From a virus, in IMG/VR virus record IMGVR_UViG_3300008735_000075, positions 1 to 29,199 of that record: a stretch of 29,199 nucleotides of DNA; one strand, given 5' to 3'. A program made the translations under genes and the position numbers. The notes under the pieces are model-generated. The model was not told the origin of the DNA. It did not search any database and was given only the letters and a program-made list of their open reading frames with translations. This document shows, one piece after another, positions 4,188 through 15,564 of the stretch. Within the stretch, counting starts at the first letter, position 1, and each line of letters opens with the position of its first letter.

Positions 4188-4421
4188 TTTTCTATCTTCT
4201 GGTTCTACTGTTACATCGCCATCCAATAGCATTTTACAAATAGTGAGATCTACTGAATCATCAAAATTTTCTATTCCTTCTTTTATATTTTCTTCTAAAA
4301 GGTTTGATATAATTTGACAAGCAACTATATATCTTTGAGTCAAATTTGTTACATCGTTACTAAAATCAAGAAGTTGTTTAAGTTCTTCTTTTGTTAAACC
4401 ATTAATACCCTGCAATTGCAT
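4179..4421 (-). CDS. Small helical protein downstream of large terminase
   Basis: This 80-residue protein reads MQLQGINGLTKEELKQLLDF and is acidic and mostly helical. An earlier ATG at 4442 has no ribosome site, whereas the ATG at 4421 has GGAGG seven bases upstream, so I use 4421. It overlaps the end of the large terminase gene by about 20 bases, implying coupled translation. No domain is recognised. Its place between terminase and portal suggests a packaging or head role, but that is inference. Confidence 0.6.
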   Translation of the reverse strand: MQLQGINGLTKEELKQLLDFSNDVTNLTQRYIVACQIISNLLEENIKEGIENFDDSVDLTICKMLLDGDVTVEPEDRKLH

Positions 4422-5652
4422 CCATTGGCCTCCATTCATCATCTAATTCTATTGAGTGGGCGAAATCAGCCACGCTAACCTGGTCTATATAAGCCAAAGC
4501 ATCTAGCATGTCATCATGTGCTAAACGATTTGGAAAGTCAATGAGTTGATTAGTAAATTCTCTCCACTCTCTTTTGTCATTAAAGGTTATCTGACCATGT
4601 TCCATTCTTCCTTGTAATGACCAAGTAATTCTATCGTTCTTTTTCTTACCACCATGCCTACATTCAGCAATTGTAACCCATCTTCCTTGAGTTCTCATTT
4701 CATCTTCCAAATAAGGTAAGATTGCGTTCCTTAGAGAGCCAGTTTCAATCCCTACTGTAGAAGATTCAACCTTGATTGCCGATTTAAGAATTTTTTTAGC
4801 AGTTTCCTTTACATTCCACCTGCCATGTAGAATGTCTTTAACCCACCACTTATCTCTGTCTATCTTAACTATCGCAATGGCTGTTTCATCTAATCGTGAT
4901 CGTTTTAAATTCCGTTCTTTCTCTATTGACTCATAACCAGCAGGATCAACAGCAATAACATAACTCCCATCTTTTGGTTCTTCATCCATCTGAAACCACG
5001 CTTCCTTGAAGATACCGCCAGTATTGGTTTCAAAAGAAGCCTCAAACTCTTGTCTAAAAGACATAGAGGACATTGATTTCTTAGAAGCCTCTATTTCATC
5101 AGAAGGTAAAAAAGGGTTATCTCTTGAAGTAAACTGAAAAGCCTCCCACTCATCATCTTCCAAAGCATCTTTATAGAGATCAAAGAAGTGATTCTTACCT
5201 GCTGGCGTTCCTATGAATAAAGCACCACCACGAACATCTGCCAAAGTCGGTCTTATGATCTGTTCCCATACCTGGGGTTTCATATTTGCATACTCATCTA
5301 GCACGCAATAAGCTAATCCTACTCCCCTCAAGGTTTCTGGTCTATCAGAACCTTTAAGATATATCTTCCTGCCGTTAATTAAAGTCAATACAGCAGTATT
5401 CTCATAGGCTTGTACAATCAAATCACTACCCAAATCCTTCAACATCGCCCACATAATGTCTTTAGCTTGCTGAAATGTAGGAGCAATATAGAAAACATCC
5501 TTGCTTTCAGACTGAATCGCATTAATCAACAACAACCAAGCAGAAAGGTAGGACTTTCCAAACCTTCTTCCTGCTGCGACAATCTTGAACCTCTTCTTGG
5601 AATTGAATATCTCTAGCTGTGCTGGATGAAGATCAATGTTTAACTCAGCCAT
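4402..5652 (-). CDS. terL: Large terminase subunit (packaging ATPase and nuclease)
   Basis: This 416-residue motor protein pumps DNA into the procapsid and cuts the concatemer. The ATPase half shows Walker A GRRFGKS (residues 28-34), Walker B YCVLDE (115-120) and the coupling motif GTP (148-150). The RNase H-like nuclease half shows the acidic residues expected for metal binding: D236 in AVDPAG, E303 in GIETG, and D380/D384 in HDDMLDALAY. This is the Terminase_6/Terminase_6C type. An AGAAGG site precedes the ATG, which overlaps the stop of the upstream 40-residue gene. All key residues are present, so it should be active. Confidence 0.95.
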   Translation of the reverse strand: MAELNIDLHPAQLEIFNSKKRFKIVAAGRRFGKSYLSAWLLLINAIQSESKDVFYIAPTFQQAKDIMWAMLKDLGSDLIVQAYENTAVLTLINGRKIYLKGSDRPETLRGVGLAYCVLDEYANMKPQVWEQIIRPTLADVRGGALFIGTPAGKNHFFDLYKDALEDDEWEAFQFTSRDNPFLPSDEIEASKKSMSSMSFRQEFEASFETNTGGIFKEAWFQMDEEPKDGSYVIAVDPAGYESIEKERNLKRSRLDETAIAIVKIDRDKWWVKDILHGRWNVKETAKKILKSAIKVESSTVGIETGSLRNAILPYLEDEMRTQGRWVTIAECRHGGKKKNDRITWSLQGRMEHGQITFNDKREWREFTNQLIDFPNRLAHDDMLDALAYIDQVSVADFAHSIELDDEWRPMDAIAGY

Positions 5653-5767
5653 TTACCTTCTTCTGTTCCTTTTTACGATTTTTTTCCACCCTCATTCTCC
5701 ATATTCTATGATTTCTAACAGAATGTTTTAGTTTATTAACTATAGGGTGTGGTTTCTTATGGCTCAT
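5645..5767 (-). CDS. Tiny basic protein just upstream of terL
   Basis: This 40-residue protein, MSHKKPHPIVNKLKHSVRNH and then RIWRMRVEKNRKKEQKKVNG, is very basic. Its ATG overlaps the TGA of the upstream zinc-protein gene (ATGA) and its own TGA overlaps the start of terL. Both junctions are exactly coupled, which is the main evidence that it is translated. The charge suggests DNA or RNA binding, possibly with the terminase, or a simple coupling leader for terL. No homolog is recognised. Confidence 0.55.
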   Translation of the reverse strand: MSHKKPHPIVNKLKHSVRNHRIWRMRVEKNRKKEQKKVNG

Positions 5768-5949
5768 TCTTTGTCTTTTATTCCTAAATGATATTTAGCC
5801 ATATCCATGACAGAAGAATAACACCATTCACAGAAGGTAACAGGGGAAATTCCAAAATATCCTTGTACTCCACCGCACTCTGGATCATATTCACCACCAC
5901 AAATGCAGCACTCATCGTCTAATTCAGCTTTTTTTTGCTCCGCTGACAT
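5764..5949 (-). CDS. Small zinc-binding protein in the terminase operon
   Basis: This 61-residue protein has cysteine pairs ECCICGGEYDPEC and then TFCEWCY, fitting a small zinc ribbon or knuckle with two CxxC-like sites about 22 residues apart. It overlaps the small-terminase candidate by 26 bases and the next small gene by an ATGA junction, so it belongs to the packaging operon. The role is unknown; zinc proteins of this size often bind nucleic acid or adapt other proteins. Note that 'CCIC(G/N)G' recurs in the 67-residue accessory protein at 10.3 kb. Confidence 0.65.
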   Translation of the reverse strand: MSAEQKKAELDDECCICGGEYDPECGGVQGYFGISPVTFCEWCYSSVMDMAKYHLGIKDKE

Positions 5950-6313
5950 TAACTATTACCTCGTCATCGTCTTTTTCAACTGGTTCAATCAATTCAGCCT
6001 CTTCAAATTCACTCGCTTTTTCTTTTATAGATTCTATAGATGCCACATTAATAATAACTTGAGCATCACTCTTTGTTCGTGTAGAGTCAACAGCCTTATG
6101 TACTGGCAATATTCTATCCAGGCACATTTTAAGGCAATGTACATCGCCTTGCATAGCCTTTGAAATCACCTTTTCCACTATTTCAGGACTCTTATTAGAC
6201 ATCAACTCTCTTGCGAGGGCGGTGTATTTGTTTACAGAGCCTTTAGGCCTACCTGCTGGATTTAATGATACCATTCCTTTTACGAAGGCAGGATTACCCT
6301 TTGATTTGCTCAC
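5924..6313 (-). CDS. Small terminase candidate (DUF5681-type)
   Basis: This 129-residue protein has the motif NPAGRPKGSVNKYT at about residues 18-31, the hallmark of DUF5681 proteins found upstream of large terminases and often proposed as the DNA-recognising small subunit. A helical region follows (ARELMSNKSPEIVEKVISKA) and then an acidic C-terminus ending KDDDEVIVNVSGAKKS. It starts with GTG overlapping the previous stop (GTGA), with GAGG upstream. Position three genes ahead of terL supports a packaging role, and the adjacent repeat-rich noncoding stretch is a natural place for a packaging site. The small-terminase role is inferred from family and context. Confidence 0.65.
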   Translation of the reverse strand: MSKSKGNPAFVKGMVSLNPAGRPKGSVNKYTALARELMSNKSPEIVEKVISKAMQGDVHCLKMCLDRILPVHKAVDSTRTKSDAQVIINVASIESIKEKASEFEEAELIEPVEKDDDEVIVNVSGAKKS

Positions 6314-6528
6314 AATACCTCTACTTCACCATTGGTTTCAATCCAGACCCTAGCACCACATGACAATGGCTTGTCTGGTCTATAGACAACCTTAGAATCA
6401 CCCTTTATTACAACCTCATGTCCATACTTATTATCCTTATAGGTTTTGCAGGTAATAACTGGTTTTCTTTCGCCTGTCTTAGTGTTTCTTTTAATAACAT
6501 GCTGATTAATATGGATGATTTTCTTCAT
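6310..6528 (-). CDS. Conserved small phage protein heading the head operon
   Basis: This is a 72-residue basic, beta-rich protein: MKKIIHINQHVIKRNTKTGE, then PVITCKTYKDN, HEVVIKG and YRPDKPLSCGARVWIET. I recognise the INQH...PVIT.K.YKDN...KPLSCGARVWIE pattern as a conserved phage protein of unknown function. A TTG 48 bases upstream is a poor start with no ribosome site. The ATG at 6528 matches the family start and lies only seven bases after a good -10 box, so its mRNA may be leaderless. It is the first gene of the terminase-head operon and overlaps the next gene as GTGA. Confidence 0.72.
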   Translation of the reverse strand: MKKIIHINQHVIKRNTKTGERKPVITCKTYKDNKYGHEVVIKGDSKVVYRPDKPLSCGARVWIETNGEVEVL

Positions 6529-6535
6529 TGTGGGT

Positions 6536-6544
6536 AGTATACCA
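6536..6544 (-). promoter_or_regulatory. Extended -10 promoter of the terminase-head operon
   Basis: The minus strand reads TGGTATACT, an extended -10 (TGn plus TATACT at 6541-6536). No convincing -35 is seen. Transcription would start at about 6529-6528, on or next to the ATG of the first gene. The same TGGTAT core occurs in the 11.51-kb and 9.71-kb promoters. Confidence 0.55.
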
Positions 6545-6593
6545 CATAAGTAATTGATATTTGGTTTTTTTTTCAAATTTTGTTTTTTGTGCG

Positions 6594-6622
6594 TTGGAGG
6601 TAGCGTTTACAGTTGATATAAG
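6594..6622 (+). promoter_or_regulatory. Weak candidate plus-strand promoter in the island
   Basis: TTGGAG (6594-6599) and TATAAG (6617-6622) are 17 bases apart. A transcript from about 6629 would run to the plus-strand terminator ending near 6700, making a short RNA of about 70 bases with no gene in it. The -35 match is poor, so this is tentative. Confidence 0.25.
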
Positions 6623-6670
6623 CGAAGAGCCTCCCTGGGGGTGTTTGGGGATCTGGTCGGAGCTGCTCTG

Positions 6671-6700
6671 AAAGGCCTATTCTAGAGCCTTTTTTATTTT
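6671..6700 (+). terminator. Rho-independent terminator, plus strand, with no plus-strand gene before it
   Basis: AAAGGC (6671-6676) pairs with GCCTTT (6687-6692), with inner CTA/TAG pairs, and is followed by TTTTTTATTTT. An alternative stem GCTCT/AGAGC overlaps it. The T-run marks the plus strand as the terminated one, although all nearby genes are on the minus strand. It may end a small RNA. Confidence 0.5.
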
Positions 6701-7020
6701 CAGCCGTTTGCTACAATCCAGGAGATGAATCCCTGGGAGAATCAGAGGGAGAATGGCTGACCGATATCCTACTTATTGATTAGTAGTTATCTATTGCCAG
6801 GAGCTGCACCAGGTACTCATACTTAGGAGCTTTACAGCTTCCCTGGCTTTGTGTTCTCTTCCTGGTTGTTCTCTTACTGTTAGAGCTGCTTATTAATCAG
6901 GGTTCAGGCTCTGCCATTGCAGCAGAACAGGAGGCCAGGTAGCAGCTGGAACCCATCACCCAGGCAACCAGTCGACCAGGTGCAGCAGCTGCCAGGTTTT
7001 TTATCTCCCTGGCTGAATGT

Positions 7021-7098
7021 TGGAAGTTAAAAAAGACTTCCTGGAAGTTAAAATAAACTTCCCAGGCTTTGTTGGAAGTTAAAACTAATTTTTGGAAG
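7021..7098. repeat. TGGAAGTTAAAA repeats forming two tandem palindromes
   Basis: TGGAAGTTAAAA occurs at 7021, 7042 and 7073, with a shorter TGGAAG at 7093; the spacings of 21, 31 and 20 bases are close to whole helical turns. The first two copies each form an inverted repeat: GGAAGT/ACTTCC at 7022-7041, and GGAAGTT/AACTTCC at 7043-7062. This looks like a phased protein-binding array in the CCWGG island. Confidence 0.6.
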
Positions 7099-7265
7099 CC
7101 TTGCAGCCGTTGCCTGGCTGAACAGGGCAAAAGGCCAGGAATACGCCTGGAACAGCTCCCCAGGATTCGTTTTAAGCGGCTTTTATTAGGTAGGCCTGGC
7201 GTTGGGTTGTGGGTTATTGGCTGTTTGCTGCCTGGTTGGCTCTGTGTTCCTGGAGGCCAGACACT

Positions 7266-7289
7266 AAAAAGGGAGGCTGTGAACCTCCC
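7266..7289 (-). terminator. Rho-independent terminator of the 7.3-8.7 kb unit
   Basis: Read on the minus strand, GGGAGG (stem), a 7-base loop and CCTCCC are followed by TTTTT. The plus-strand positions are the A-run at 7266-7270, arms at 7271-7276 and 7284-7289. It lies 24 bases after the stop of the 128-residue gene. Confidence 0.82.
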
Positions 7290-7312
7290 TGATTATTTAC
7301 AGCTGCCTGGTT

Positions 7313-7699
7313 TTATTCAGGCGGAGCCTGCCAGGTTTCAGCCTGGAGAGTTTGGCCGAACTTGCCAACCCTTCGCAGGGTTATAACCTGGTTATCATTA
7401 ATATGAGTCAAGACTCGTTCCCTGGTTCCATCCTGGGAAGGCTTACTTATAACCTGATTGCCATCAACCTGGTTGATGGAGAACTCCCAACCGAACACAT
7501 CCATAATAGCATTCAGGCGTTCCCTGGTTGTTGGCGTTGGCCAGCCTGCCAGGGTTATTGCTACTTTTTTGTTGTTCAGCTTCCAGGCTATACGATTGCC
7601 ATGTAGGAATACCTGGTTGCCATCAGTCATAGTATTAGAGATTGATTTTTTACGGCCATCTCTGAAAGCCTGGGCTATATCTTTACTTATTTTTCTCAT
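7313..7699 (-). CDS. Conserved phage protein of unknown function (AGWxTxTTRERLN type)
   Basis: This is a 128-residue protein with the pattern TDGN..FLHGNRIAWK (residues 25-40) and ITLAGWPTPTTRERLNAI (about 48-65), which I recognise from many tailed phages, including cyanophages, as a small protein of unknown role. AAAGGAAAG precedes the ATG. NQV occurs four times, each time because a CCAGG site falls in the gene; the DNA motif thus appears to shape the protein. It is the last gene of its unit and a clear terminator follows. A regulatory or host-takeover role would suit its accessory position, but nothing in the sequence shows it. Confidence 0.75.
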   Translation of the reverse strand: MRKISKDIAQAFRDGRKKSISNTMTDGNQVFLHGNRIAWKLNNKKVAITLAGWPTPTTRERLNAIMDVFGWEFSINQVDGNQVISKPSQDGTRERVLTHINDNQVITLRRVGKFGQTLQAETWQAPPE

Positions 7700-7752
7700 A
7701 ATCTTTCCTTTAAAGGCCTGGTTTTTAAGAAGGGTTCAGGCGTTCCCTGTTA

Positions 7753-7778
7753 GTGTTATTTTAAACGAACATTAACAC
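7753..7778 (-). promoter_or_regulatory. Possible promoter with GTGTTA/TAACAC dyad
   Basis: A TAAAAT -10-like box (7763-7758, minus strand) sits inside a dyad with arms GTGTTA (7753-7758) and TAACAC (7773-7778). It could give the 128-residue gene its own transcript. No -35 is evident, so it is weak. Confidence 0.3.
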
Positions 7779-7853
7779 GCCTATGATTAATATCAAGAAA
7801 AAAAATGATATTACACTTGCAACAAAAATCCAAAAATGAGTTTTAGTTATCAT
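7761..7853 (-). CDS. 30-residue single-span membrane protein
   Basis: The product is MITKTHFWIFVASVISFFFL and then ILIIGVLMFV: a short polar start and one hydrophobic span taking up nearly the whole protein. The ATG overlaps the stop of the upstream zinc-ribbon gene (TAATG), and GAGGAGG lies at the end of that gene as a strong ribosome site. This explains the otherwise empty 150-base gap. It should sit in the inner membrane. Function is unknown; tiny phage membrane proteins often modulate host enzymes, block superinfection or assist lysis. One of several such micro-proteins in the window. Confidence 0.6.
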   Translation of the reverse strand: MITKTHFWIFVASVISFFFLILIIGVLMFV

Positions 7854-8146
7854 TAATCCTCCTCTGCAATGGTTGTCCAATCCCTGACCAGCTCGACTGT
7901 ATATTCCTGGTTGCATTTTATACATACCCAGTATTCATACGGCCAGCAGTTATGGAGTCCAGCTTCGACCAGTTCGCCTTTACACTTTGGACAGGCTTCC
8001 TCCTGGTCTAGCTGTTCTTGTTTTACAGCCTCTGCTTTTTTAACAGCTTCCTCAAGTTTTTCAATAAAGCCAGGATATTCCTCCCTCATATCTTCGCCAT
8101 AGCAAGTTTGCCAGGCGTTTATAAATTGCCATAGTTTAAGTTTCAT
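7853..8146 (-). CDS. Zinc-ribbon protein
   Basis: This 97-residue protein has an N-terminal helical part (MKLKLWQFINAWQTCYGEDM, then a charged helix KLEEAVKKAEAVKQEQ) and a C-terminal zinc ribbon with CPKC near residue 52 and CIKC about 25 residues later, within WPYEYWVCIKCNQEY. AAAGGAGG lies just before the ATG, which overlaps the preceding stop (ATGA). Such helix-plus-ribbon proteins may bind nucleic acid or a protein partner; I do not know the target. It is the second gene of the unit starting at 8688. Confidence 0.72.
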   Translation of the reverse strand: MKLKLWQFINAWQTCYGEDMREEYPGFIEKLEEAVKKAEAVKQEQLDQEEACPKCKGELVEAGLHNCWPYEYWVCIKCNQEYTVELVRDWTTIAEED

Positions 8147-8688
8147 AATACCTCCTTTGGTGCTTCGCCTGACCTGGCCTTTGGTAGATACTTTGCAATA
8201 TAGTATTCGTTGCCGTTGGAGTCATAGGTTGCATCACCTTCATGGGGATTAACTTCATCCTCCAGATACCATTCTGTATAACAATATACATCTGCATCAT
8301 ATAGTATCTGATTGAAGCAGTCCTGGCTGCAAGCTCTCGTATCATCCCAAATTAAAAACCCCTCTGTCATACCCTTACCACAGCACTCACATTGCCTGGG
8401 ATGCTTGGTATCATCTTTTGGGAAGTCTTTCAGGTTTAGGGTTCTTAGCATTTTTTTATCCCTGGTTGGGTTTTCTGCCAGGATGATGTCATAGCCTTCT
8501 GAATCACCACAGGCAATCCACACAGCATCAAGTAATTTTCCATCACCATCAACCCATACTTGAACATAGAAATTATCAGCATCATAGTTTTTACTTTTTT
8601 TAGCAATTGGCAACCAATGTGCCTTTGCTTCTTTTAATGCTTGTAGTTGATTTTTTGTTGGGTTATCAACCCCTTTAATTTTAGACAT
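8143..8688 (-). CDS. Accessory protein with a treble-cleft-like cysteine motif
   Basis: This 181-residue protein starts MSKIKGVDNPTKNQLQALKE. Residues 40-75 look like a beta sheet (FYVQVWVDGDGKLLDAVWIA). A CECCGKGMTEGFLIWDDTRACSQDC segment follows near residue 99, fitting a CxxC...CxxxC zinc site of the kind seen in treble-cleft or 'DUF' phage zinc fingers. The C-terminus is acidic with tyrosines and tryptophans. It is first in its unit, with a TATAAT promoter and an AAGGAAAATA ribosome leader. The family is not recognised. Several CCWGG sites lie in it in different frames. Confidence 0.7.
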   Translation of the reverse strand: MSKIKGVDNPTKNQLQALKEAKAHWLPIAKKSKNYDADNFYVQVWVDGDGKLLDAVWIACGDSEGYDIILAENPTRDKKMLRTLNLKDFPKDDTKHPRQCECCGKGMTEGFLIWDDTRACSQDCFNQILYDADVYCYTEWYLEDEVNPHEGDATYDSNGNEYYIAKYLPKARSGEAPKEVL

Positions 8689-8705
8689 ATTATTTTCCTT
8701 GTTGC

Positions 8706-8758
8706 CTGGCGTTATTGCCAGTAAGAAAATTATAACAAAAATTTTTGCCTGGTCTTAA
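8706..8758 (-). promoter_or_regulatory. Promoter with start-site dyad for the 8688 unit
   Basis: On the minus strand TTAAGA (8758-8753) and TATAAT (8734-8729) are 18 bases apart, and TGT precedes TATAAT (extended -10). A dyad CTGGC (8706-8710)/GCCAG (8717-8721) covers the expected start site near 8722 and could be an operator or 5'-end hairpin. Confidence 0.62.
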
Positions 8759-8767
8759 TTAAAAAAT

Positions 8768-8794
8768 AAAAAAAAAGGAGGCGTTGCAGCCTCC
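8768..8794 (-). terminator. Rho-independent terminator of the 9668 unit
   Basis: GGAGGC (8777-8782) and GCCTCC (8789-8794) form the stem with a 6-base loop, and an A-run at 8768-8776 gives the minus-strand U-tract. It lies 22 bases after the stop at 8816 and 10 bases from the next promoter. Confidence 0.85.
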
Positions 8795-8815
8795 CTGTAT
8801 GGATTTAAAGGATTT

Positions 8816-9142
8816 TTATAATGATCCTGGCAAGGCTCCATTAGTGATCTTATTGTCCGATTTTTTATCCGATATTGTTACCGATTTTTTGGTCATAAAA
8901 TCATCAAGTTGGTCATGCCTTTTTTTGACTTCATCATAAATGAGTTGAAACCTTTTAGCATTGGCATTTGAATGTCGTAGATTATCCAACCAATCCAAGA
9001 TCGCTTCATAATCATAGGTGATGTGATCTTGGATTAAATCAACAAATTCTAATTCAGGTTTTGTACCTAAGTCCAACATGTAGTCAGTATACAAATCCCA
9101 CAAAAGATCCATTCTTACATGGTCGTTACCTTTAATATCCAT
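8816..9142 (-). CDS. Acidic accessory protein of unknown function
   Basis: This 108-residue protein starts MDIKGNDHVRMDLLWDLYTD. It is helical and acidic through residue 60 (ELEFVDLIQDHITYDYEAIL), then has a charged basic stretch and a polar tail ending KSDNKITNGALPGSL. A GGAGG site lies upstream and the ATG overlaps the previous stop. It is the last gene of a three-gene unit, just before a strong terminator. No domain is recognised; acidic small proteins of this kind can be DNA mimics or host-protein inhibitors, but nothing specific shows that here. Confidence 0.6.
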   Translation of the reverse strand: MDIKGNDHVRMDLLWDLYTDYMLDLGTKPELEFVDLIQDHITYDYEAILDWLDNLRHSNANAKRFQLIYDEVKKRHDQLDDFMTKKSVTISDKKSDNKITNGALPGSL

Positions 9143-9405
9143 TATGCAGCCTCCTTGATTGAGTTAATCAGGGCATCCTGATAATGAATTGTTGCAAGCG
9201 TTTCGCTGTTGAGATTTTCCAAAGAAAATCCCATTTCGTGTGCGAGTTGCAATGACTCTGTTAGTGTCCAGTCATTTTCAGATAGATACTCCATTGCTCT
9301 GTTGTAATAAAGTATATCTGACTCCAGGCAAAATTGAACTGCCTCCTCATGGGTATCAAATTTTTCCTTCTCACCATGGTATTTATCATCTACTATATAC
9401 ATCAC
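9142..9405 (-). CDS. Small acidic accessory protein
   Basis: The 87-residue product, MMYIVDDKYHGEKEKFDTHE and onward, is acidic and helical, with an AVQFCLESDILYYNRAMEYL segment and a C-terminal GFSLENLNSETLATIHYQDA. GGAGATTAAGTG precedes the ATG, which overlaps the upstream stop. It is the middle gene of its unit. No family is recognised. The gene is supported by its ribosome site, coupling and coherent codon use. Confidence 0.6.
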   Translation of the reverse strand: MMYIVDDKYHGEKEKFDTHEEAVQFCLESDILYYNRAMEYLSENDWTLTESLQLAHEMGFSLENLNSETLATIHYQDALINSIKEAA

Positions 9406-9668
9406 TTAATCTCCTTAATGGTTACAGACTTAAATGTTAGATTTTTATGATCTTCAGCTCTATCCTGAACATCCTCCCACCAGCCTTTGGTATGATGAAA
9501 ATTATCCATAGCTTTGGCTTCTTCAGGGAATCCTTTGGCCAGGCGTTTGTAGTTTCCTGTATCAGCGATAGACAATAGCTTGGCAAGGCCGTCATGAAAT
9601 GAGCCATGGGTTCTATACTGCCATTCCCATATAAACATTTCACCTTTTGTTAATAGTTTTCTATTCAT
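9402..9668 (-). CDS. Conserved accessory protein (FIWEWQYR type)
   Basis: This 88-residue protein reads MNRKLLTKGEMFIWEWQYRT, then FHDGLAKLLSIAD and RLAKGFPEEAKAM, with a GWWEDVQ segment near residue 62. The FIWEWQYR...G.F...L...I..AD......L..GFP.E......W pattern resembles a small protein I have seen in other phages, function unknown. AAGGAAAAATT precedes the ATG, the same leader as two other first genes of units. It heads a three-gene transcript from the TGGTATTCT promoter. Confidence 0.65.
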   Translation of the reverse strand: MNRKLLTKGEMFIWEWQYRTHGSFHDGLAKLLSIADTGNYKRLAKGFPEEAKAMDNFHHTKGWWEDVQDRAEDHKNLTFKSVTIKEIK

Positions 9669-9683
9669 AATTTTTCCTTATTG

Positions 9684-9712
9684 GTGATCCAATTGATCAC
9701 AATAATAGAATA
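9684..9712 (-). promoter_or_regulatory. Extended -10 promoter with GTGATC/GATCAC operator
   Basis: The minus strand has TGG followed by TATTCT (9712-9707). A perfect dyad, GTGATC (9684-9689), 5-base spacer, GATCAC (9695-9700), covers the expected start site. The half-site GTGAT also occurs in the same place at the 10.9-kb promoter, suggesting one shared regulator. Confidence 0.55.
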
Positions 9713-9716
9713 CCAG

Positions 9717-9742
9717 AAAAAAGGCTCAATTAAGAGCCTTTT
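9717..9742 (-). terminator. Rho-independent terminator of the 10861 unit
   Basis: A 9-base stem AAAAGGCTC (9719-9727)/GAGCCTTTT (9734-9742) with an AATTAA loop is followed by the U-tract from 9722 down to 9717 on the minus strand. It abuts the promoter of the next unit. The symmetric A/T flanks mean it may work in both directions. Confidence 0.75.
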
Positions 9743-9775
9743 ATGTTTATTGCGTTTTGATCCTCAATATTTCAT

Positions 9776-9904
9776 CTAATCCTCCTTTAGGTTGTTAGCA
9801 TTTATTTTGTCGTTTGCATCCAGGAAGAATGAAATAAAAGCACAGGCCATAGCCGATATAAAAGCTACGAATAGTATCAAATGTATTATTAGATTTCTTA
9901 TCAT
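9776..9904 (-). CDS. 42-residue single-span membrane protein
   Basis: The product begins MIRNLIIHLILFVAFISAMA and continues CAFISFFLDANDKINANNLK: one long hydrophobic helix and a polar C-terminal tail. Its ATG overlaps the TGA of the 37-residue gene upstream (ATGA). It is the last gene before the terminator. Together with its neighbour it fills a 338-base gap that otherwise looks empty. The orientation is probably N-in by the single arginine near the start, tail outside, but this is uncertain. Function unknown. Confidence 0.55.
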   Translation of the reverse strand: MIRNLIIHLILFVAFISAMACAFISFFLDANDKINANNLKED

Positions 9905-10014
9905 ACCAACCAGCCTTTGCGAAGTGCCTCCAGGAACATAACAACATAGACCATTGAAGTGGCACAGGTTACGAGCATAAGAAAAACCAACAGGGAAATG
10001 ACTTTATCAAACAT
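9901..10014 (-). CDS. 37-residue single-span membrane protein
   Basis: The product, MFDKVISLLVFLMLVTCATS and then MVYVVMFLEALRKGWLV, is one hydrophobic span with a basic C-terminal end. The ATG lies inside the end of the preceding gene, with a GGGGG ribosome-site-like run upstream, and the stop overlaps the next micro-gene. The tandem, overlapping arrangement of two membrane micro-proteins suggests they act together, as paired holin/antiholin or small regulatory subunits do. That is only an analogy. Confidence 0.55.
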   Translation of the reverse strand: MFDKVISLLVFLMLVTCATSMVYVVMFLEALRKGWLV

Positions 10015-10252
10015 CTATCGCCCCCAGTTGATCTTCTTTAAGTAAAAATGTACCTTCTGGCGTATCAAACTTGCAAGTATAGATAAAATCGCCACTATAC
10101 GCCTTATCAATGGCGATAATTTCACCTAGACAATCATTGACAATATCCAAATCATCTTTAGCGATAATTAAATCTCCAACATTAAATAGACTTCCCAATA
10201 AGTGGGGTGCTCCAAATGGACAGAATGGAGGCTCGCCTGGTAATGTACTCAT
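10007..10252 (-). CDS. Small SH3/KOW-like protein
   Basis: This 81-residue protein contains FNVGDLIIAKDDLDIVNDCL, then GEIIAIDKAYSGDFIYTCKFD, TPEGTFLLKEDQL. The 'xVGDxVixx...xGxIxxI......Y.vkF....g...l.edqL' pattern is that of a small SH3-like beta barrel found in many phage-encoded proteins. The role could be protein or nucleic-acid binding. The N-terminus carries a proline-rich piece (PGEPPFCPFGAP). The ATG overlaps the preceding stop (ATGA). Third gene of the 10861 unit. Confidence 0.6.
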   Translation of the reverse strand: MSTLPGEPPFCPFGAPHLLGSLFNVGDLIIAKDDLDIVNDCLGEIIAIDKAYSGDFIYTCKFDTPEGTFLLKEDQLGAIDV

Positions 10253-10452
10253 GGGTTATCCCTGAATATCAATGTTGATGATAATCTAGCTGGAATAACA
10301 ACATGGTCGTTACATACATCACAACACCTGGCATCAGGTTTATTATTAACAGGCCAGGGATCATTACCATCAGTCCAGTAAATCTCGCCTGTTTCTGTTC
10401 TTTTGACTTCAATATCGCCATTGCAGATACAACATTTTTTAGGTTCACTCAT
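10249..10452 (-). CDS. Small zinc-binding phage protein (VVIPARL type)
   Basis: This 67-residue protein has CCICNGDIEV at the start and ARCCDVCNDHVVIPARL near residues 42-58. CCIC..(I)E........G...W..GN.PWPV......RCC..CN..VVIPARL is a pattern I recall from a short conserved cyanophage protein. Four to six cysteines form one zinc site. The function is unknown in the family. It overlaps both neighbours by a few bases. Confidence 0.72.
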   Translation of the reverse strand: MSEPKKCCICNGDIEVKRTETGEIYWTDGNDPWPVNNKPDARCCDVCNDHVVIPARLSSTLIFRDNP

Positions 10453-10861
10453 CAGATCCCTCCAGCTGTTTTTTAACTTCTTTGAATAATTCAGTTAATT
10501 TATAGCGATGGATCTTGCCACGACCATACCAGGGTAAAGTGGCTTTGGTATCTACATTGAAATAACCACATAGTACAGACACTACTGTTGGACACATAAC
10601 GCCTTTGAGATGTTTGATCTCTTTTCCATCATTGCCAGTTATAGTGAATTTAGGATTTGAGTTGTTAGAGTGATGTGTTTCAGTCATATCATCAATAAAC
10701 TCTTTTGAAAAACCCATATTAATAAAATATTCAGGAGAATAGATAGTTACATAATCTCCCAGGCCAGCAAAATACTCGCCATTACTATGCTCCTGGTTTT
10801 TTTTATATACTTCAAGAAAATTCTCTTTTCTTGTTCTTGCTTTTTCTTCATAAGTTTTCAT
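10445..10861 (-). CDS. Accessory protein of unknown function, first of its unit
   Basis: This 138-residue protein starts MKTYEEKARTRKENFLEVYK, has an aromatic middle (GEYFAGLGDYVTIYSPEYFI) and a C-terminal half with PKFTITGNDGKEIKHLKGVM, VVSVLCGYFNVDTKAT and a basic RGKIHRYKLTELFKEV segment. The C-terminus could be a small DNA-binding region, but I see no clear helix-turn-helix. AAAAGGAAAAATT precedes the ATG and a TATAAT promoter lies upstream. Confidence 0.6.
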   Translation of the reverse strand: MKTYEEKARTRKENFLEVYKKNQEHSNGEYFAGLGDYVTIYSPEYFINMGFSKEFIDDMTETHHSNNSNPKFTITGNDGKEIKHLKGVMCPTVVSVLCGYFNVDTKATLPWYGRGKIHRYKLTELFKEVKKQLEGSDE

Positions 10862-10879
10862 AATTTTTCCTTTTAAGAA

Positions 10880-10910
10880 GTGATCCCATTTGAATCACAG
10901 TTTAATTATA
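10880..10910 (-). promoter_or_regulatory. TATAAT promoter with GTGAT/ATCAC operator
   Basis: TATAAT lies at 10910-10905 on the minus strand. A dyad GTGAT (10880-10884)/ATCAC (10894-10898) covers the expected start site, the same location and half-site as at 9.69 kb. No good -35 is seen because the upstream space is taken by a terminator. Confidence 0.55.
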
Positions 10911-10913
10911 ACG

Positions 10914-10936
10914 AAAAAAAGGCTCCATTAAGAGCC
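10914..10936 (-). terminator. Rho-independent terminator of the 11452 unit
   Basis: GGCTC (10921-10925)/GAGCC (10932-10936) with a 6-base loop, and a run of seven A's at 10914-10920 that becomes a U-tract on the minus strand. It directly abuts the next promoter. Confidence 0.72.
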
Positions 10937-10954
10937 ATTTTATAAAAATATTTA

Positions 10955-11020
10955 GATGCCTTGTTTTTTCGGCACAAGTACAAGGCAGAAAACTTGCATC
11001 CAAAGGGTAGAAGTAACCCT
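10955..11020. other. Structured 3' untranslated stretch
   Basis: Between the stop at 11035 and the terminator there are three possible stems: GCCTTGT (10958-10964)/ACAAGGC (10980-10986), AGGGT (11004-11008)/ACCCT (11016-11020), and a competing GATGC (10955-10959)/GCATC (10996-11000). No gene fits. It may be an RNA 3' element or small RNA; the strand is undecided. Confidence 0.35.
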
Positions 11021-11034
11021 AGCCGAGGAGAAAT

Positions 11035-11331
11035 TCAAAACATCTGTAATTTCGGATATTTTTCACCTAATTTTTTACCTAAATCACCATGCTTTTCTAT
11101 CTTTACATACTTTAACGATCCAACAAAATCACAAACTGTTTGATAATCATCAGGATCAATTCTTTTCGGTTCAAGGCCTTGGACTAAAATATCCATACAG
11201 AGTGTGAAATCTCCGATCAACTTAATTAATTCAGAGTGGGATTCGATTAAGTCATCAAGATCTACTCTGTAATTATGTTTCGATTCGAGCCATTTCGTAG
11301 CCAATCTATGTTCAAAGGGTATCGGGTTCAT
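11035..11331 (-). CDS. Early leftward protein of unknown function
   Basis: This 98-residue helical protein begins MNPIPFEHRLATKWLESKHN, then YRVDLDDLIESHSELIKLIG. The ATG at 11331 has GGAG eight bases upstream; a TTG four codons earlier is unlikely. It overlaps the 46-residue gene upstream by 20 bases. As the second gene leftward from the divergent promoter it occupies the place where lambdoid phages keep early regulators, but no DNA-binding motif is visible. Function unknown. Confidence 0.6.
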   Translation of the reverse strand: MNPIPFEHRLATKWLESKHNYRVDLDDLIESHSELIKLIGDFTLCMDILVQGLEPKRIDPDDYQTVCDFVGSLKYVKIEKHGDLGKKLGEKYPKLQMF

Positions 11332-11452
11332 TTTTTTCTCCAAATATTTCCCAATAAATTGCTTTAACTATTTTTCTATATTCTTTTTGTTCGTATTTTG
11401 ATATGTTTATTTCACTAACTAATTGTGCGAATAGCATTATTTTATTTTTCAT
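11312..11452 (-). CDS. 46-residue leader gene of the leftward unit
   Basis: The product MKNKIMLFAQLVSEINISKY, then EQKEYRKIVKAIYWEIFGEK, is a small helical protein. ACAAGGAGAAAAT precedes the ATG, an excellent ribosome site, and the gene overlaps the next by 20 bases. The helices (FAQLVSEINISKYE...YRKIVKAIYWEI) could form a compact three-helix bundle. It is first off the divergent promoter. A small regulator is possible; nothing proves it. Confidence 0.58.
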   Translation of the reverse strand: MKNKIMLFAQLVSEINISKYEQKEYRKIVKAIYWEIFGEKNEPDTL

Positions 11453-11482
11453 ATTTTCTCCTTGTTTGTTATAAGAAACCAT

Positions 11483-11519
11483 ATTATATACCTAAAATCG
11501 ACAATTTTAGTGGTATAAT
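11483..11519. promoter_or_regulatory. Symmetric divergent promoter around one palindrome
   Basis: Rightward: TGG then TATAAT at 11514-11519. Leftward: TATAAT at 11488-11483. Between them, three bases from each, lies the 19-base palindrome CTAAAATCGACAATTTTAG (7-base arms, 5-base centre, 11492-11510). The palindrome arms fall where each promoter's -35 would be. One bound protein could control both the accessory and replication units. Confidence 0.72.
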
Positions 11520-11547
11520 TTAATTTCTTTATTTAAAAGGAAAAATA

Positions 11548-12162
11548 ATGGCAACAGCTAAAACTAAAACTAAACCAAATATTTATAAAGCATTAATGGA
11601 TTTTCGTTCTCAAGTAGATTCAGTAGAGAGAACCTCTAAGAATGAATTTCTTAATTACCATTATGCTAATATCAATAACATAATCGACACCATCAAACCA
11701 GTTCTTTATGATTTGGGTATGGGTTATGTACAAACTATTCAATATGTTGATGGAATTGATCTATTGAATACAAGGGTTTTCCTGGTCGATCATCCAGAGG
11801 AATACATTGAGTCTAATGTCAGGTTGATTATGGTTAAAGAGGACAGCCAATCGCTAGGCAGTTCAATAACTTACAATCGTAGGTATTCTCTGATCTCAAT
11901 TTTCTCTCTTGAAGTCGAAGATGATGATGGTGAAAGAGCAGTTAAAACCAAACCAAAAACATCAACTCAATCCTGGAACTCACATATTAACGAGATTAAG
12001 GCTAAAATCGACACAGCCAAGAAGGATGGCGATCTTGAAAAAGCTACTAAAATTTGGGAATGGCTAGAAGAAAAAACCATAAATGAACATGGACAATTAA
12101 TGGAAACTTCTAAGTACATTCCTATGGTAGACTATTACGAACAAGTTTTTAATGGGGAGTGA
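11548..12162 (+). CDS. erf: ERF-family single-strand annealing protein
   Basis: This 204-residue protein resembles P22 ERF, a ring-forming recombinase that anneals complementary single strands. Seen: NIYKALMDFRSQVDSV at the start, FLNYHYANINNIIDTIKPVL (34-53), GSSITYNRRYSLISIF (104-119) and the acidic LEVEDDDGER (121-130); the G-S-x-x-TYxRRYxL...xxxDDDG core is diagnostic. The C-terminal 65 residues vary in the family. AAAAGGAAAAATA precedes the ATG. It is the first rightward gene. With RusA and NinB it forms a P22/lambda-type recombination set used for replication restart and concatemer building. Confidence 0.88.
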   Translation: MATAKTKTKPNIYKALMDFRSQVDSVERTSKNEFLNYHYANINNIIDTIKPVLYDLGMGYVQTIQYVDGIDLLNTRVFLVDHPEEYIESNVRLIMVKEDSQSLGSSITYNRRYSLISIFSLEVEDDDGERAVKTKPKTSTQSWNSHINEIKAKIDTAKKDGDLEKATKIWEWLEEKTINEHGQLMETSKYIPMVDYYEQVFNGE

Positions 12163-12309
12163 TGGTACACTTACCATGATTAATGTACTGTTTATCACGC
12201 TTTTAAACAGGGTGGACTCATATACCACTTCCTTACATTAATTATTTAAGTGCGTAGGCTATTTAGACTGGTCGGCCTGGGGGGTTACGATAATACTCCC
12301 ACTTTTTTT
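12162..12309 (+). ncRNA. Candidate structured RNA: hairpin plus two three-way junctions
   Basis: In the 164-base gap after erf: a hairpin ATGGTA/TACCAT (12162-12177); then junction 1 with P1 ATTAATGTA (12179-12187)/TACATTAAT (12234-12242), P2 CTGTTT (12188-12193)/AAACAG (12205-12210) and P3 GGTGG (12211-12215)/CCACT (12225-12229); then junction 2 with P1 AAGTG (12248-12252)/CACTT (12300-12304), P2 AGGCT (12256-12260)/GGCCT (12274-12278) and P3 GGGGT (12281-12285)/ACTCC (12295-12299). Seven T's follow. It could be a riboswitch or attenuator for the SSB-like gene, or a stand-alone RNA with its 3' end at the T-run. It lacks a hammerhead core and is not a tRNA. The class is not recognised. Confidence 0.42.
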
Positions 12310-12326
12310 AATTAATAGGAATAATT

Positions 12327-12602
12327 ATGTCAGAAGATAAAAATAAACCCTCAAGTGGTAATTTGTATAAAAGTAAATACAAGTTAAATGATGGATCGGA
12401 AGAAGATAGAACAAGAGAAGATTACTATGGCACTTACAGAGATGTAGATGGCAAAGTATGGAAACTAACTGGGTATATCAACAAAGGCCAATATGGAACA
12501 TGGCTAAAAATTTATACCAGGGAAATGAACGCTACGGAAAAGTATACTGATTCTAATTCTGCACCACAAAGAGAAGAATTTGAAGATGATGTTCCGTTTT
12601 GA
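12327..12602 (+). CDS. Small SSB-like protein with SSB-type acidic tip
   Basis: The 91-residue protein has a short beta-rich body (YYGTYRDVDGKVWKLTGYIN, then KGQYGTWLKIYTRE) and an unstructured tail ending REEFEDDVPF. The tip matches the DDDIPF end by which bacterial SSB recruits partner enzymes. The 'Y-x-G...DGKxWxLxGxIxxG..GxxLxI' body resembles small OB-like proteins in phage replication modules. It lies between the annealing protein and the initiator. I infer single-strand DNA binding and recruitment of host SSB partners. It is too short for the full bacterial SSB fold. Confidence 0.6.
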   Translation: MSEDKNKPSSGNLYKSKYKLNDGSEEDRTREDYYGTYRDVDGKVWKLTGYINKGQYGTWLKIYTREMNATEKYTDSNSAPQREEFEDDVPF

Positions 12603-12895
12603 TGCGAGAAACAAAAACTAAAGATGGAAAAGTATTAACTAGAACTTCAACAGGCTACTGGACAGAACTCTACACTTTGGATGATGGGAGATATATAACC
12701 GCTGAAGAATTAGCACTAAGGTTAGAAACTACTTCCCATACTGCCAGGGCAAGACTAAATAAGTCATCTGATCCGAATAAGATTTTTCGTAGTGTTAAAC
12801 AAATTAACCGCAGCGGTAATGATAGGGTTGATTCAAACTGGATGGATGGTAAAACCTGGTATAAAGATCCTTTAGTCAAGTTAATGTTAAAGTAA
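12602..12895 (+). CDS. Helix-turn-helix DNA-binding protein
   Basis: This 97-residue protein carries a likely helix-turn-helix at about residues 34-58 (ITAEELALRLETTSHTARARL), resembling AsnC/GntR-like or phage regulator helices. It is basic at the end (DGKTWYKDPLVKLMLK). The ATG at 12602 overlaps the SSB-like stop as TGATG, and its stop overlaps the next start as TAATG. It may be a transcription regulator of the divergent promoter or a replication factor; neither is shown. Confidence 0.62.
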   Translation: MRETKTKDGKVLTRTSTGYWTELYTLDDGRYITAEELALRLETTSHTARARLNKSSDPNKIFRSVKQINRSGNDRVDSNWMDGKTWYKDPLVKLMLK

Positions 12896-13548
12896 TGCCA
12901 ATTCATAAGCTAGAAACCCACCAAAACGATATGCCATACTTTATGTTGAGTAGGGAGATCGTTCAGGCTATTAATAACCCTGATGCTTTGGCTATTTGGT
13001 GTTATCTTCAATCTAAACCTCAAAACTGGGTTGTTTTAGAGGATCAAGTCAGAACACATTTTGATATGGGAAGAACTAAATACCTAAAAGCAATGAAGTG
13101 CTTGAGAGATTCAGGATTGTATAGAGTGGTTAGACTAAAAGATGATAAGCATAGGTTCTCTAGCAATGTATTCCATATATACGCTTTTCCGTACATACGG
13201 CTTTCCGTACATACGGAAACCCATACCGACATTAAAGAGAAAGAGAATACAAATAGAAAGAGAAAGACTCTATCTACTGAAGAACGACAATTATTTGAAG
13301 ATTTCAGACAACGATATAGTGGAAAGAAAAGAGGACTTGATACAGAGCTAAATAATTTTTTAAAAAAAACAAAAGATTGGAAAACTGTTTTACCTATGCT
13401 TTCTACTGTAAACTTAGACTTTGATGTAACTGATAAAAAATATATACCACACTTTCAAACTTTTATGAACCAAAGGAGATGGGAAATGATGACACCAGGA
13501 AAAACCAAGCCACAACCCTATAAAGAATTCGATTGGAGAAAAAAATGA
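12895..13548 (+). CDS. Replication initiator-like protein (O/DnaD-type)
   Basis: This 217-residue protein has an N-terminal winged-helix region (residues 10-95: FMLSREIVQAINNPDALAIW, WVVLEDQVRTHFDMGRTKYL, ECLRDSGLYRV-like turn) like lambda O or phage primosomal initiators. A charged linker follows (KEKENTNRKRK, ~115-128) and then a C-terminal half with LNNFLKKTKDWKTVLPML and PHFQTFMNQRRWEMM, similar to the loader-side domain of DnaD/O-like proteins. The gene contains three 16-base iterons in its middle, as lambda O contains the lambda origin. It overlaps the previous gene by TAATG. Role as initiator that brings the DnaB helicase downstream is inferred. Confidence 0.68.
   Translation: MPIHKLETHQNDMPYFMLSREIVQAINNPDALAIWCYLQSKPQNWVVLEDQVRTHFDMGRTKYLKAMKCLRDSGLYRVVRLKDDKHRFSSNVFHIYAFPYIRLSVHTETHTDIKEKENTNRKRKTLSTEERQLFEDFRQRYSGKKRGLDTELNNFLKKTKDWKTVLPMLSTVNLDFDVTDKKYIPHFQTFMNQRRWEMMTPGKTKPQPYKEFDWRKK
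13171..13217. repeat. Iterons: candidate replication origin inside the initiator gene
   Basis: Three tandem copies of a 14-16-base unit start at 13171 (TTCCATATATACGC, degenerate), 13187 (TTCCGTACATACGG) and 13203 (same), exactly 16 apart. The last extends to the palindrome TTTCCGTACATACGGAAA (13202-13219). A purine-rich, AT-rich stretch follows (13231-13330). Sixteen is not a multiple of three, so the repeat is at DNA rather than protein level. The arrangement copies the lambda ori-in-O plan. Confidence 0.6.
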
Positions 13549-13820
13549 GCCATGAAGGGAATGATGAATTAAAAGAACAGGAATATGAAGATGATCCTAG
13601 AATTGATATTACCTTAATAAATGGACAAACACACCCTATTGGTAATTGGACTTCTGCTGAATGGTTTTATGTTGGCTTTAAGTGTGCTTTAGGTTGGGGG
13701 TTTCCACAACCGATAGAAGAAGATGAAAATGATTTTTTTATTCATCAAGAAAATAATAAAGATGCTTTTTATCATGGCATGGAAATTGGTGAACAATATA
13801 AAGGAGAAGAAGATGAGTAA
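13545..13820 (+). CDS. Small acidic protein of unknown function
   Basis: This 91-residue, very acidic protein begins MSHEGNDELKEQEYEDDPRI and has an aromatic middle (WTSAEWFYVGFKCALGWGFP) with glutamate/aspartate-rich ends. The ATG at 13545 has GGAG eight bases upstream and overlaps the initiator stop (ATGA). The next gene overlaps its end. No domain is recognised. It lies in the early replication unit. Confidence 0.6.
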   Translation: MSHEGNDELKEQEYEDDPRIDITLINGQTHPIGNWTSAEWFYVGFKCALGWGFPQPIEEDENDFFIHQENNKDAFYHGMEIGEQYKGEEDE

Positions 13821-14019
13821 AAATATAGAGAGTGTTGTTTTAAAGAATTTAGTTGTTATGTTACGAGAACAAAAAAATGACGAACAAAGTGTTAAACATA
13901 TAAGAGAAAATGCAGAATTTTGGCTTGATATTATTGGAGTTGCTTTTATTGATGCAATAATTTTTGAAGAGGAAAATATTATTGACTATAAAAACGCTTG
14001 GAGAGTTAATAATGAGTAA
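13813..14019 (+). CDS. Small helical protein of unknown function
   Basis: The 68-residue product MSKNIESVVLKNLVVMLREQ and onward has two helices and an acidic IIFEEENIIDYKNAW end. An in-frame ATG upstream gives a much longer hydrophobic leader, but the ATG at 13813 has an AAGGAGAAGAAG ribosome site and overlaps the previous stop by ATGAGTAA. No domain recognised. Confidence 0.58.
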   Translation: MSKNIESVVLKNLVVMLREQKNDEQSVKHIRENAEFWLDIIGVAFIDAIIFEEENIIDYKNAWRVNNE

Positions 14020-14242
14020 AATGGGCAATATACATTTCCAGGCACAGGAAGATGCTAGAGATGGAATAATGGAGAAAAAATCCTTTTTAGAGGAGTATGG
14101 TGATGGTGCTTTGGATATTTGGGAAGAATTTAATGGTGAAGATCCTGATGAATATAGGAAAAAATCCTATTTTGGTCAATCTTTGGAAGAGCAATCAGAC
14201 TATGAAGTACAAACTGAACATTGGGCAAAGGAAAGAGCTTGA
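14012..14242 (+). CDS. Small acidic protein upstream of DnaB
   Basis: This 76-residue protein, MSKMGNIHFQAQEDARDGIM and onward, is acidic with YGDGALDIWEEFNGEDPDEY in the middle. The ATG at 14012 has GGAGAG upstream and overlaps the preceding stop; the same ATGAGTAA junction recurs at 13813. Its stop overlaps the TTG start of the helicase (TTGA). No family recognised. Confidence 0.58.
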   Translation: MSKMGNIHFQAQEDARDGIMEKKSFLEEYGDGALDIWEEFNGEDPDEYRKKSYFGQSLEEQSDYEVQTEHWAKERA

Positions 14243-15564
14243 AAAATAACAAAAAAACCATCTACAGAGAATTAAAAAATAAATCTGATTCACTAGATTC
14301 AGAAAGATCAGTTGTAGGAGGCCTACTCTTAGATCCCTGCTTAGATCGTGTCCTGGGTACTGGCCTGGTATCAGATGACTTTAGTAATGACAAATTAAGG
14401 TATATCTTTGATTGCATTATAGAGTTAGTTGATGCAAAAAAACCTGTTGATATACTAACTGTCAGGGATTATATTGAATTACAGGAACAGCCTAAAAGTA
14501 GATCCTGGGCGGTAGACTTTCAAGATCTTGCTTTTTTGACTGAAAATTGTGTAGTTGTTGATCATATAGATGTTTATGCAGAACATATTCGCACCTGTAG
14601 AATTAAAAACGATATTGAAATGTGGAAATTCAATATTGAATATGATAACTACCAGGAAACTGTTGATGAAATTCAGAAATTGGAAAATGAATTGCTGGAT
14701 CGTGATGAAAATTCAATGAAAAGCATTGTTGGAAAGACTATAGACTATCTTGATGATGTTAGTAAGAATGGTACTGGTCTATCTAGTGGGTTTGAGTCAT
14801 TAGATGCTCTTACTTCAGGATTTAGGCCAGGATCTCTTAATGTTTTAGCAGGCAGACCATCTATGGGTAAAACTACACTCGCTTTAAACATAGCAAACCA
14901 CCTAAGTAGCACAAAAAATGTCTTATTTTTCTCATTAGAGATGAGCCAGGTGCAATTAATGATGAAAATGGTTTCATGTGATAGCTATTTACCTCTAGGT
15001 AGGGTTGAAAGAGGTGATTTAAGCGAAAATGAACAGACCAAATTTTATGAAAGTCTTGCTAAAGCAGGCAATAAAAATATGAACATTATTGACAAATCAG
15101 GATTAACTGTAAAAAGCATCTTTTCTACTGCAAAAAAACTCAATTCAGATAGAAAAATTGATATAATACTCATAGATTATTTACAGATCATTCGTTACGA
15201 TAAAGGGCGTGAAGTAAGCGAGCTTGGCAACATAACAAGAGAGTTAAAGTACCTCTCTAAAGACCTTGAGATACCCATAATTCTACTTTCTCAGTTAAGC
15301 AGGGGGGTAGAGAGCCGAGAAAATAAAAGGCCTTATATGAGTGATTTACGAGCTTCAGGAGAAATCGAGCAAGATGCTGATATTGTTATGTTTGTTTATC
15401 GAGATGACTATTATCATGAGGATTCACCTGATCGAGGATTGGCTGAATTCATTGTTGCCAAGAATAGAATGGGAAAAAGTGGCTTTGTTAAGTGTAATTT
15501 TGATGGTAATTATTCTAAATTCTCTGATATAGAGATTAATATCTATGACAAAGACCAAGAATAA
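14239..15564 (+). CDS. dnaB: Replicative DNA helicase, DnaB family
   Basis: This 441-residue hexameric helicase unwinds the replication fork. N-terminal DnaB domain at about 20-125 (DSERSVVGGLLLDPCLDRVL; the YAEHIRTC region). The C-terminal ATPase has Walker A GRPSMGKTT (205-213), FFSLEMS (230-236), the IILIDYLQII Walker B region, LLSQLSRGVESR and SGEIEQDADIVMFVYRDDYY. The start is TTG at 14239, overlapping the previous TGA, with AAAGGAAAG just upstream; a TTG six codons earlier lacks one. No primase or polymerase is in the window, so it presumably recruits host DnaG and polymerase III. Confidence 0.93.
   Translation: MKNNKKTIYRELKNKSDSLDSERSVVGGLLLDPCLDRVLGTGLVSDDFSNDKLRYIFDCIIELVDAKKPVDILTVRDYIELQEQPKSRSWAVDFQDLAFLTENCVVVDHIDVYAEHIRTCRIKNDIEMWKFNIEYDNYQETVDEIQKLENELLDRDENSMKSIVGKTIDYLDDVSKNGTGLSSGFESLDALTSGFRPGSLNVLAGRPSMGKTTLALNIANHLSSTKNVLFFSLEMSQVQLMMKMVSCDSYLPLGRVERGDLSENEQTKFYESLAKAGNKNMNIIDKSGLTVKSIFSTAKKLNSDRKIDIILIDYLQIIRYDKGREVSELGNITRELKYLSKDLEIPIILLSQLSRGVESRENKRPYMSDLRASGEIEQDADIVMFVYRDDYYHEDSPDRGLAEFIVAKNRMGKSGFVKCNFDGNYSKFSDIEINIYDKDQE

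Follow-up and report, generated by a model that had tools for sequence, protein, structure and literature searches.

A dense island of CCWGG sites lies beside the terminase operon of a marine podovirus-like phage, and at the same place some of its close relatives carry islands of GATC instead. CCWGG is the Dcm-type site and GATC the Dam-type site, both of them classic targets of bacterial DNA methylation. We think it probable that the island is an array of methyltransferase-type sites held under selection on a swappable cassette, and the exchange of motifs suggests that host DNA methylation is put to use in cis, be it in counter-defence or in the control of packaging or replication. The DNA analysed, here called the window, is an IMG/VR record of 29,199 bases with a GC content of 36.7%. 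Its minus strand encodes scaffold, portal, terL and terS from 0.7 to 6.3 kb; beyond terS are small early genes at 7.3-11.5 kb and a rightward block at 11.5-18.2 kb with Erf, a putative replication protein, DnaB, YbcO and RusA, and internal virion and tail genes reach to 29 kb, the structural names being in part inferred from position and size. The relative G011 (35.6 kb) has the same gene order with about 7 kb extra between the tail and capsid genes, and it is without this segment, from the tail-fibre region up to the capsid gene, that the window ends. GC skew in the window merely tracks the coding strand, and a host search via genome contigs returned no relative of the phage among 84,980 genomes. 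The features in and around the island are the following.

4402 to 5652, minus strand: terL, terminase large subunit, about 85-91% identical to the compared relatives
5924 to 6313, minus strand: terS-like gene (DUF5681), its product 78% identical to that of a GATC-island relative
6310 to 6576, minus strand: 88-aa open reading frame (phrog_8676) between the island and terS, with a probable start at about 6528 as judged from conserved residues 17-85
6529 to 7312, no strand: tract without a recognisable gene, from the small early genes to the terminase operon, its lower bound assuming the start at about 6528
6634 to 7721, no strand: core of the CCWGG island, 34 sites in 1.09 kb or about 1 per 32 bases, with no CCSGG and with GATC nearly absent
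7313 to 7699, minus strand: gp128, a phrog_554 / Kyano_Gp96-like small early protein
7722 to 9000, no strand: weaker shoulder of the island through the small early genes, 12 sites against 2.0 expected in 7741-9000
7853 to 8146, minus strand: gp97, zinc-ribbon-like small protein
8143 to 8688, minus strand: gp181, cysteine-rich small protein

The initial annotation had put about 34 sites in about 1.1 kb, and the exact count is indeed 34 (21 CCTGG and 13 CCAGG, with site starts spanning 6634-7717). Among 2000 dinucleotide-preserving shuffles of 6634-7721 the mean was 4.58 (sd 1.97; rounded, 4.6 +/- 2.0) and the maximum 12, which rules out a density produced by chance or composition. The AT-rich context that had been described applies to the window (GC 37%), yet the island itself has a GC content of 47%. 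In the full window there are 92 CCWGG against 34.5 expected, half of which (46 of the 92) fall within 6600-8850; the dense core does occupy the 1.1 kb first assigned to the island, but a weaker enrichment extends into 7741-15564. As had been noted, the sites centre on a gene-free stretch (6577-7312 is without a recognisable gene) and run on through genes (7313-8688). CCSGG is missing from the whole window because CCGG is totally avoided, and GATC occurs once in 6600-7740. Sites at 6960, 6976, 6992, 7008 and 7040 were found where they had been placed. The 16-base spacing is real for four of them and isolated: neither a general 16-bp nor a helical periodicity was upheld (vector strength at 10.5 bp only 0.18), and visual inspection of the relatives' GATC islands revealed no obvious one. 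A known RNA element was rejected as an explanation, there being no Rfam match, and so was a long repeat family or tandem array, since only short repeats are present.

Enrichment stops abruptly on the terminase side of the island. On the other side it continues beyond the shoulder into 9001-11548 (10 CCWGG against 2.6 expected) and 11549-15564 (14 against 3.5), and tail and head genes hold 4 against 11.2 expected. This one-sided enrichment, declining along the early-to-late gene order, is common to both motif classes. Within coding sequence the gp128 gene has 11 CCWGG against 0.7 expected from background codons or 3.7 from synonymous shuffles within the gene, the gp181 gene has 5 (0.2 and 1.0 expected, respectively) and the DnaB gene 6 (1.5 and 1.7); terL, portal and tail tube showed no clear CCWGG excess over codon expectation. 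The codon-level excess is DNA-driven, and the positive selection for the pentamer that had been proposed is supported, since sites exceed the codon-matched expectation. Words one step away from the motif are underrepresented, above all those reached by a transition. The Markov expectation here is inflated by the islands themselves, and this depletion, which fits the gain of sites by point mutation under selection, serves as supporting evidence only.

Relatives were collected by TerL and TerS scans, which gave about 140 loci with terS; query scans with gp128 or gp181 returned none, and the gp87 alignment added no new contigs. Six loci (L004, L005, L046, L048, L049 and L051), whose TerL is 90-91% identical, have no CCWGG in the same region and carry a GATC island instead, such islands holding 42-56 sites in 1.7 kb against 8-12 expected. 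When all palindromes of 4-7 bp were scanned blind across 86 distinct terS-upstream regions, the only strong islands were of GATC and CCWGG. Strong CCWGG islands are those of the window, L180/L070 and L227, with weak ones in L006-L012 and L182; GATC islands are found in L004, L005, L018, L022, L037, L046, L048, L049/L051, L073, L209 and L215, and also in L281. Most other relatives are without either island, many of them shunning GATC entirely (e.g., 0 against 30), and longer records with a GATC island shun CCWGG (0 against 12.6 expected in 15.9 kb of G006). Island z-scores, which rest on a first-order Markov expectation in metagenomic fragments, reach 11-15 in the densest islands against a maximum palindrome z of 9 in a background set of 48 loci with the short element only and without the terS signature; the sparser islands (z 7.6-8.6) do not rise above that maximum by z alone. 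In several comparisons of GATC-type phages, divergence at the GATC sites is roughly half that of the remaining sequence. Compared with other 4-mers their conservation is moderate (rank 2-14 of 42-44), and strict conservation of each single site was accordingly not retained. As a separate observation, L117/L118, an unrelated phage otherwise GATC-poor and CCWGG-free, is GATC-rich at about 4750-8000 (peaks of 12 and 7 per 500 b), possibly another island. By the test set in the initial annotation, relatives that share the genes but show no enrichment would refute the island. Many relatives do have the same terS and terL and no island, so that packaging in this family can do without the array, yet the islands that exist all lie at the same place.

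Could the islands be a mutational or technical artefact, made by biased repair (for instance by Vsr, which makes CCWGG) or by chimeric libraries built with restriction enzymes? The core contains none of the Vsr substrate CTWGG, with 8.4 expected on both strands, as such a bias would have it. Vsr is unable to make GATC islands, however, and the depleted neighbours of the latter include both transition types; the islands moreover cross intact conserved genes with the codon-level excess described above, and near-identical GATC islands were found again in separate metagenomes (L046, L049 and L051). We consider an artefact largely refuted and give it almost no weight.

In the TerL tree every island with a full TerL falls into one 17-row clade in which the motifs are mixed (100/99 support), which requires the GATC label to have changed at least 3 times; the terS DNA tree gives a count of 9 label changes. 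The tree of terS-region DNA also contains a second clade that includes L209 and L215 (GATC) and L227 (CCWGG), and there L215 and L227 are sisters (98% SH-aLRT). From a point 94 bp upstream of terS through the terminase side these two share 92% identity; on the island side they are unrelated save for short patches. In other GATC/CCWGG pairs the break falls at nearly the same position, about 65-116 bp upstream of terS, with homology returning in the early genes some 3 kb away (e.g., L049/L012). The motif is thus borne by a swappable cassette about 1-3 kb in size.

A palindromic word of 4-5 bp that has a W centre and no clear strand preference, as CCWGG has here, is the usual kind of target for methyltransferases and restriction enzymes; among readers of CCWGG and GATC, Dcm and Dam are the best known. 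Both words being methylation targets, the phages seem to adapt the stretch to whichever methylating enzyme they encounter, and the exchange of CCWGG for another methyltransferase target in sister phages supports the methylation-linked role that was among the first suggestions. Among 20 records, mostly fragments, and with this phage represented by a window about 7 kb short of G011, no Dam-, Dcm- or N6/N4-type methyltransferase gene scored above the curated cut-off, which makes a host enzyme the simplest assumption. TerS was rejected as the reader, and with it the TerS version of the binding array proposed initially, which is now disfavoured: CCWGG and GATC phages share a TerS 78% identical with a near-invariant N-terminus, and L215 and L227, so alike across the terS region, carry different motifs, so that TerS does not co-vary with the motif. 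A protein encoded by the cassette itself, with CCWGG (or GATC) specificity and indifferent to methylation, is a further candidate, for example the zinc-ribbon protein gp97. Motif class does go with cassette lineage, and homologues of gp97 (in CCWGG-type cassettes) and of gp181 (in weak CCWGG-type relatives) are not found in GATC-type cassettes. The two proteins, both small and cysteine-rich, nonetheless follow the CCWGG-type cassettes imperfectly: the island-less L014 carries both genes, and L227 has a strong CCWGG island with no detectable gp181. It would also be a coincidence for two such words to match both Dam and Dcm, and a short palindrome with a degenerate centre is, as said, what methyltransferases and restriction enzymes typically recognise, for which reasons we rate a cassette-encoded binding protein as quite improbable. 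Solved structures gave nothing useful on relatives of gp181 or gp97, and PADLOC returned no credible defence-gene match on the cassette (one weak Csf1 match, E 0.009).

Two further features bear on what the island might do.

6572 to 6640, minus strand: conserved two-part element at the sharp island edge, in minus-strand reading GAGGCTC (6627-6633) and CACAAAAAAC (6582-6591) with the adjoining TTTGAA
7020 to 7083, plus strand: three direct repeats TGGAAGTTAAA inside the island, at 7020, 7041 and 7072, with spacings of 21 and 31 bp

The element is present in most relatives, with or without islands, its parts about 42-45 bp apart (GAGGCTC, about 44 bp, then CACAAAAAACAnAATTTnAA), and homology between cassette types breaks off at it. 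Seen at 6572-6640 of the window and across 86 relatives, it comprises a GC-rich block, GGGAGGCTC, and an AT-rich block, CACAAAAAACAGAATTT, at fixed spacing upstream of terS. It is a candidate cos-, pac- or promoter-like element. Contig ends are in excess within 100-500 bp upstream of terS with no single position favoured, and a sharp end at the element was not seen. Repeats of GGAAGTTAAA, two to four in number and spaced by 21/31/41-43 bp, occur in both CCWGG- and GATC-type relatives; being direct repeats at helical spacing they resemble iterons, and the set is a candidate iteron- or operator-like protein-binding array. They were observed upstream of terS in L005, L049, L006, L014, L182 and L227, in opposite orientations in GATC-type and CCWGG-type cassettes. 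Several island-less loci (L184, L205, L206 and others) have Fur-box-like inverted repeats, GATAATCATTATC and GAGAATCATTCTC, near the start of terS, which could indicate iron-responsive control or a gammaproteobacterial host.

This setting invites comparison with a methylation-gated packaging or replication region, in which the methylation state of the array would time the terminase cut or the start of replication in the manner of P1 pac or of GATC-rich origins. The array adjoins the terminase operon and the conserved element, iteron-like repeats at helical spacing lie inside islands of both motif classes, and packaging of P1 requires Dam methylation at pac (reviewed in PMC12707154). Some relatives that share terS, terL and the element nevertheless do without an island, so that neither packaging nor replication needs one in general; the motif is not tracked by TerS, and an enrichment that runs over kilobases into the replication genes is wider than a local gate requires. 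Such a gate therefore seems to us unlikely, if still deserving of some weight. A P1-type pac site in the narrow sense fits poorly, the window having CCWGG with its single GATC in 6600-7740, the GATC cluster occurring in relatives only, and no cluster being conserved throughout the family.

The explanation that we place first, tentatively and at a little short of an even call, is that the island is a cis-acting array of sites for a host methyltransferase (or restriction-modification enzyme) on a swappable cassette. The cassette flanks the terminase operon on the side of the early genes, with CCWGG here and GATC in the sister phages, and its sites would be methylated by the current host. If the packaged DNA has its end at the conserved element beside terS, the island would enter the cell first, followed by early, replication and structural genes as in lambda-like phages, and site density, which falls in that same order, would match the order of entry. 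A methylated array at the first-entering end may then act as a cis counter-defence or self-mark that protects the incoming DNA. That the mechanism is a self-mark in particular, the array making incoming DNA count as self for host defence, is a narrower proposal and a rather doubtful one. That terS and the element also occur in relatives without an island gives the array the look of an accessory that depends on the host, not of a core part of packaging or replication, and this leads us to favour, with low confidence, a counter-defence or self-mark over a P1-pac-like gate or a decoy.

In the last of these the clustered sites on the first-entering DNA would occupy the restriction or modification enzyme of the host while the remaining genome escapes. 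It is the loss of restriction-modification words, and not their accumulation, for which phages are known, and the window phage conforms to this for CCGG (0 against 17.5 expected), GCGC (0 against 16.4) and GGWCC (0 against 23.1), an avoidance that marks it as shaped by restriction-modification. For CCWGG in the window and GATC in relatives the opposite holds, with strong local enrichment. More widely, many palindromes (CCGG, GCGC, GGNCC, CASTG, ACGT) are fully or nearly absent from the whole window, G005, G006 and G011, with regional differences, and in G011 the last 12 kb are without GATC, the remainder having a normal number. The strong avoidance of other restriction words, the one-sided gradient and the density of about one site per 32 bases would all suit a decoy. 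CCWGG is above expectation outside the island too, however, so that cutting there would still be lethal if the host restricted CCWGG, and a few dozen sites would compete with the thousands to be expected per host genome; we hold a decoy to be improbable. The same gradient, with density peaking beside the presumed end and falling inwards, is what might be seen if the sites were Chi-like and halted an end-loading nuclease of the RecBCD type near the entering end. Chi sequences as known are not palindromes, and related bacteria conserve them. The two island words, by contrast, are palindromes that replace one another between phages of close similarity, which makes Chi-like sites very unlikely, and the recombination hot-spot signal of the initial annotation is likewise disfavoured.

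Of the systems already described, the nearest precedent for such a host-methylation array is P1 pac, also a cluster of methyltransferase sites at a phage packaging locus. P1 pac is short, with seven hexamers in about 160 bp. It is GATC-only and needed for packaging, whereas the family studied here has island-less relatives, and the strong islands comprise about 30-60 sites over 1-2 kb, alternate between CCWGG and GATC and involve no repeated hexamer. E. coli oriC and P1 oriR contain GATC clusters read by Dam and SeqA, and like the island they set dense methylation sites beside iteron-like repeats; they have fewer sites, of GATC only, and the likeness is one of sequence. We know of no CCWGG reader comparable to SeqA. 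The Dam-controlled mom promoter of phage Mu, with only a few GATC sites at one promoter, likewise places host methylation sites in a phage regulatory region, without either a kilobase array or a motif swap. In the open-access literature, to which our search was confined, no description of motif-swapped islands was found; the novelty lies in the motif-swapped island as a feature, and a P1-like gate role, if proven, would tie it to a known kind. If our preferred reading is true, the locus is a natural readout of host methylation, and, should the self-mark hold, it would represent exchangeable methylation-site cassettes at the leading genome end, a counter-defence built solely of short sites. A candidate host counterpart, and no more than that as DISARM genes were not seen, is the DISARM defence, in which self DNA is marked at CCWGG (reviewed in PMC12926258). 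A phage end dense in CCWGG could imitate the DISARM self mark; the GATC islands would require a different system.
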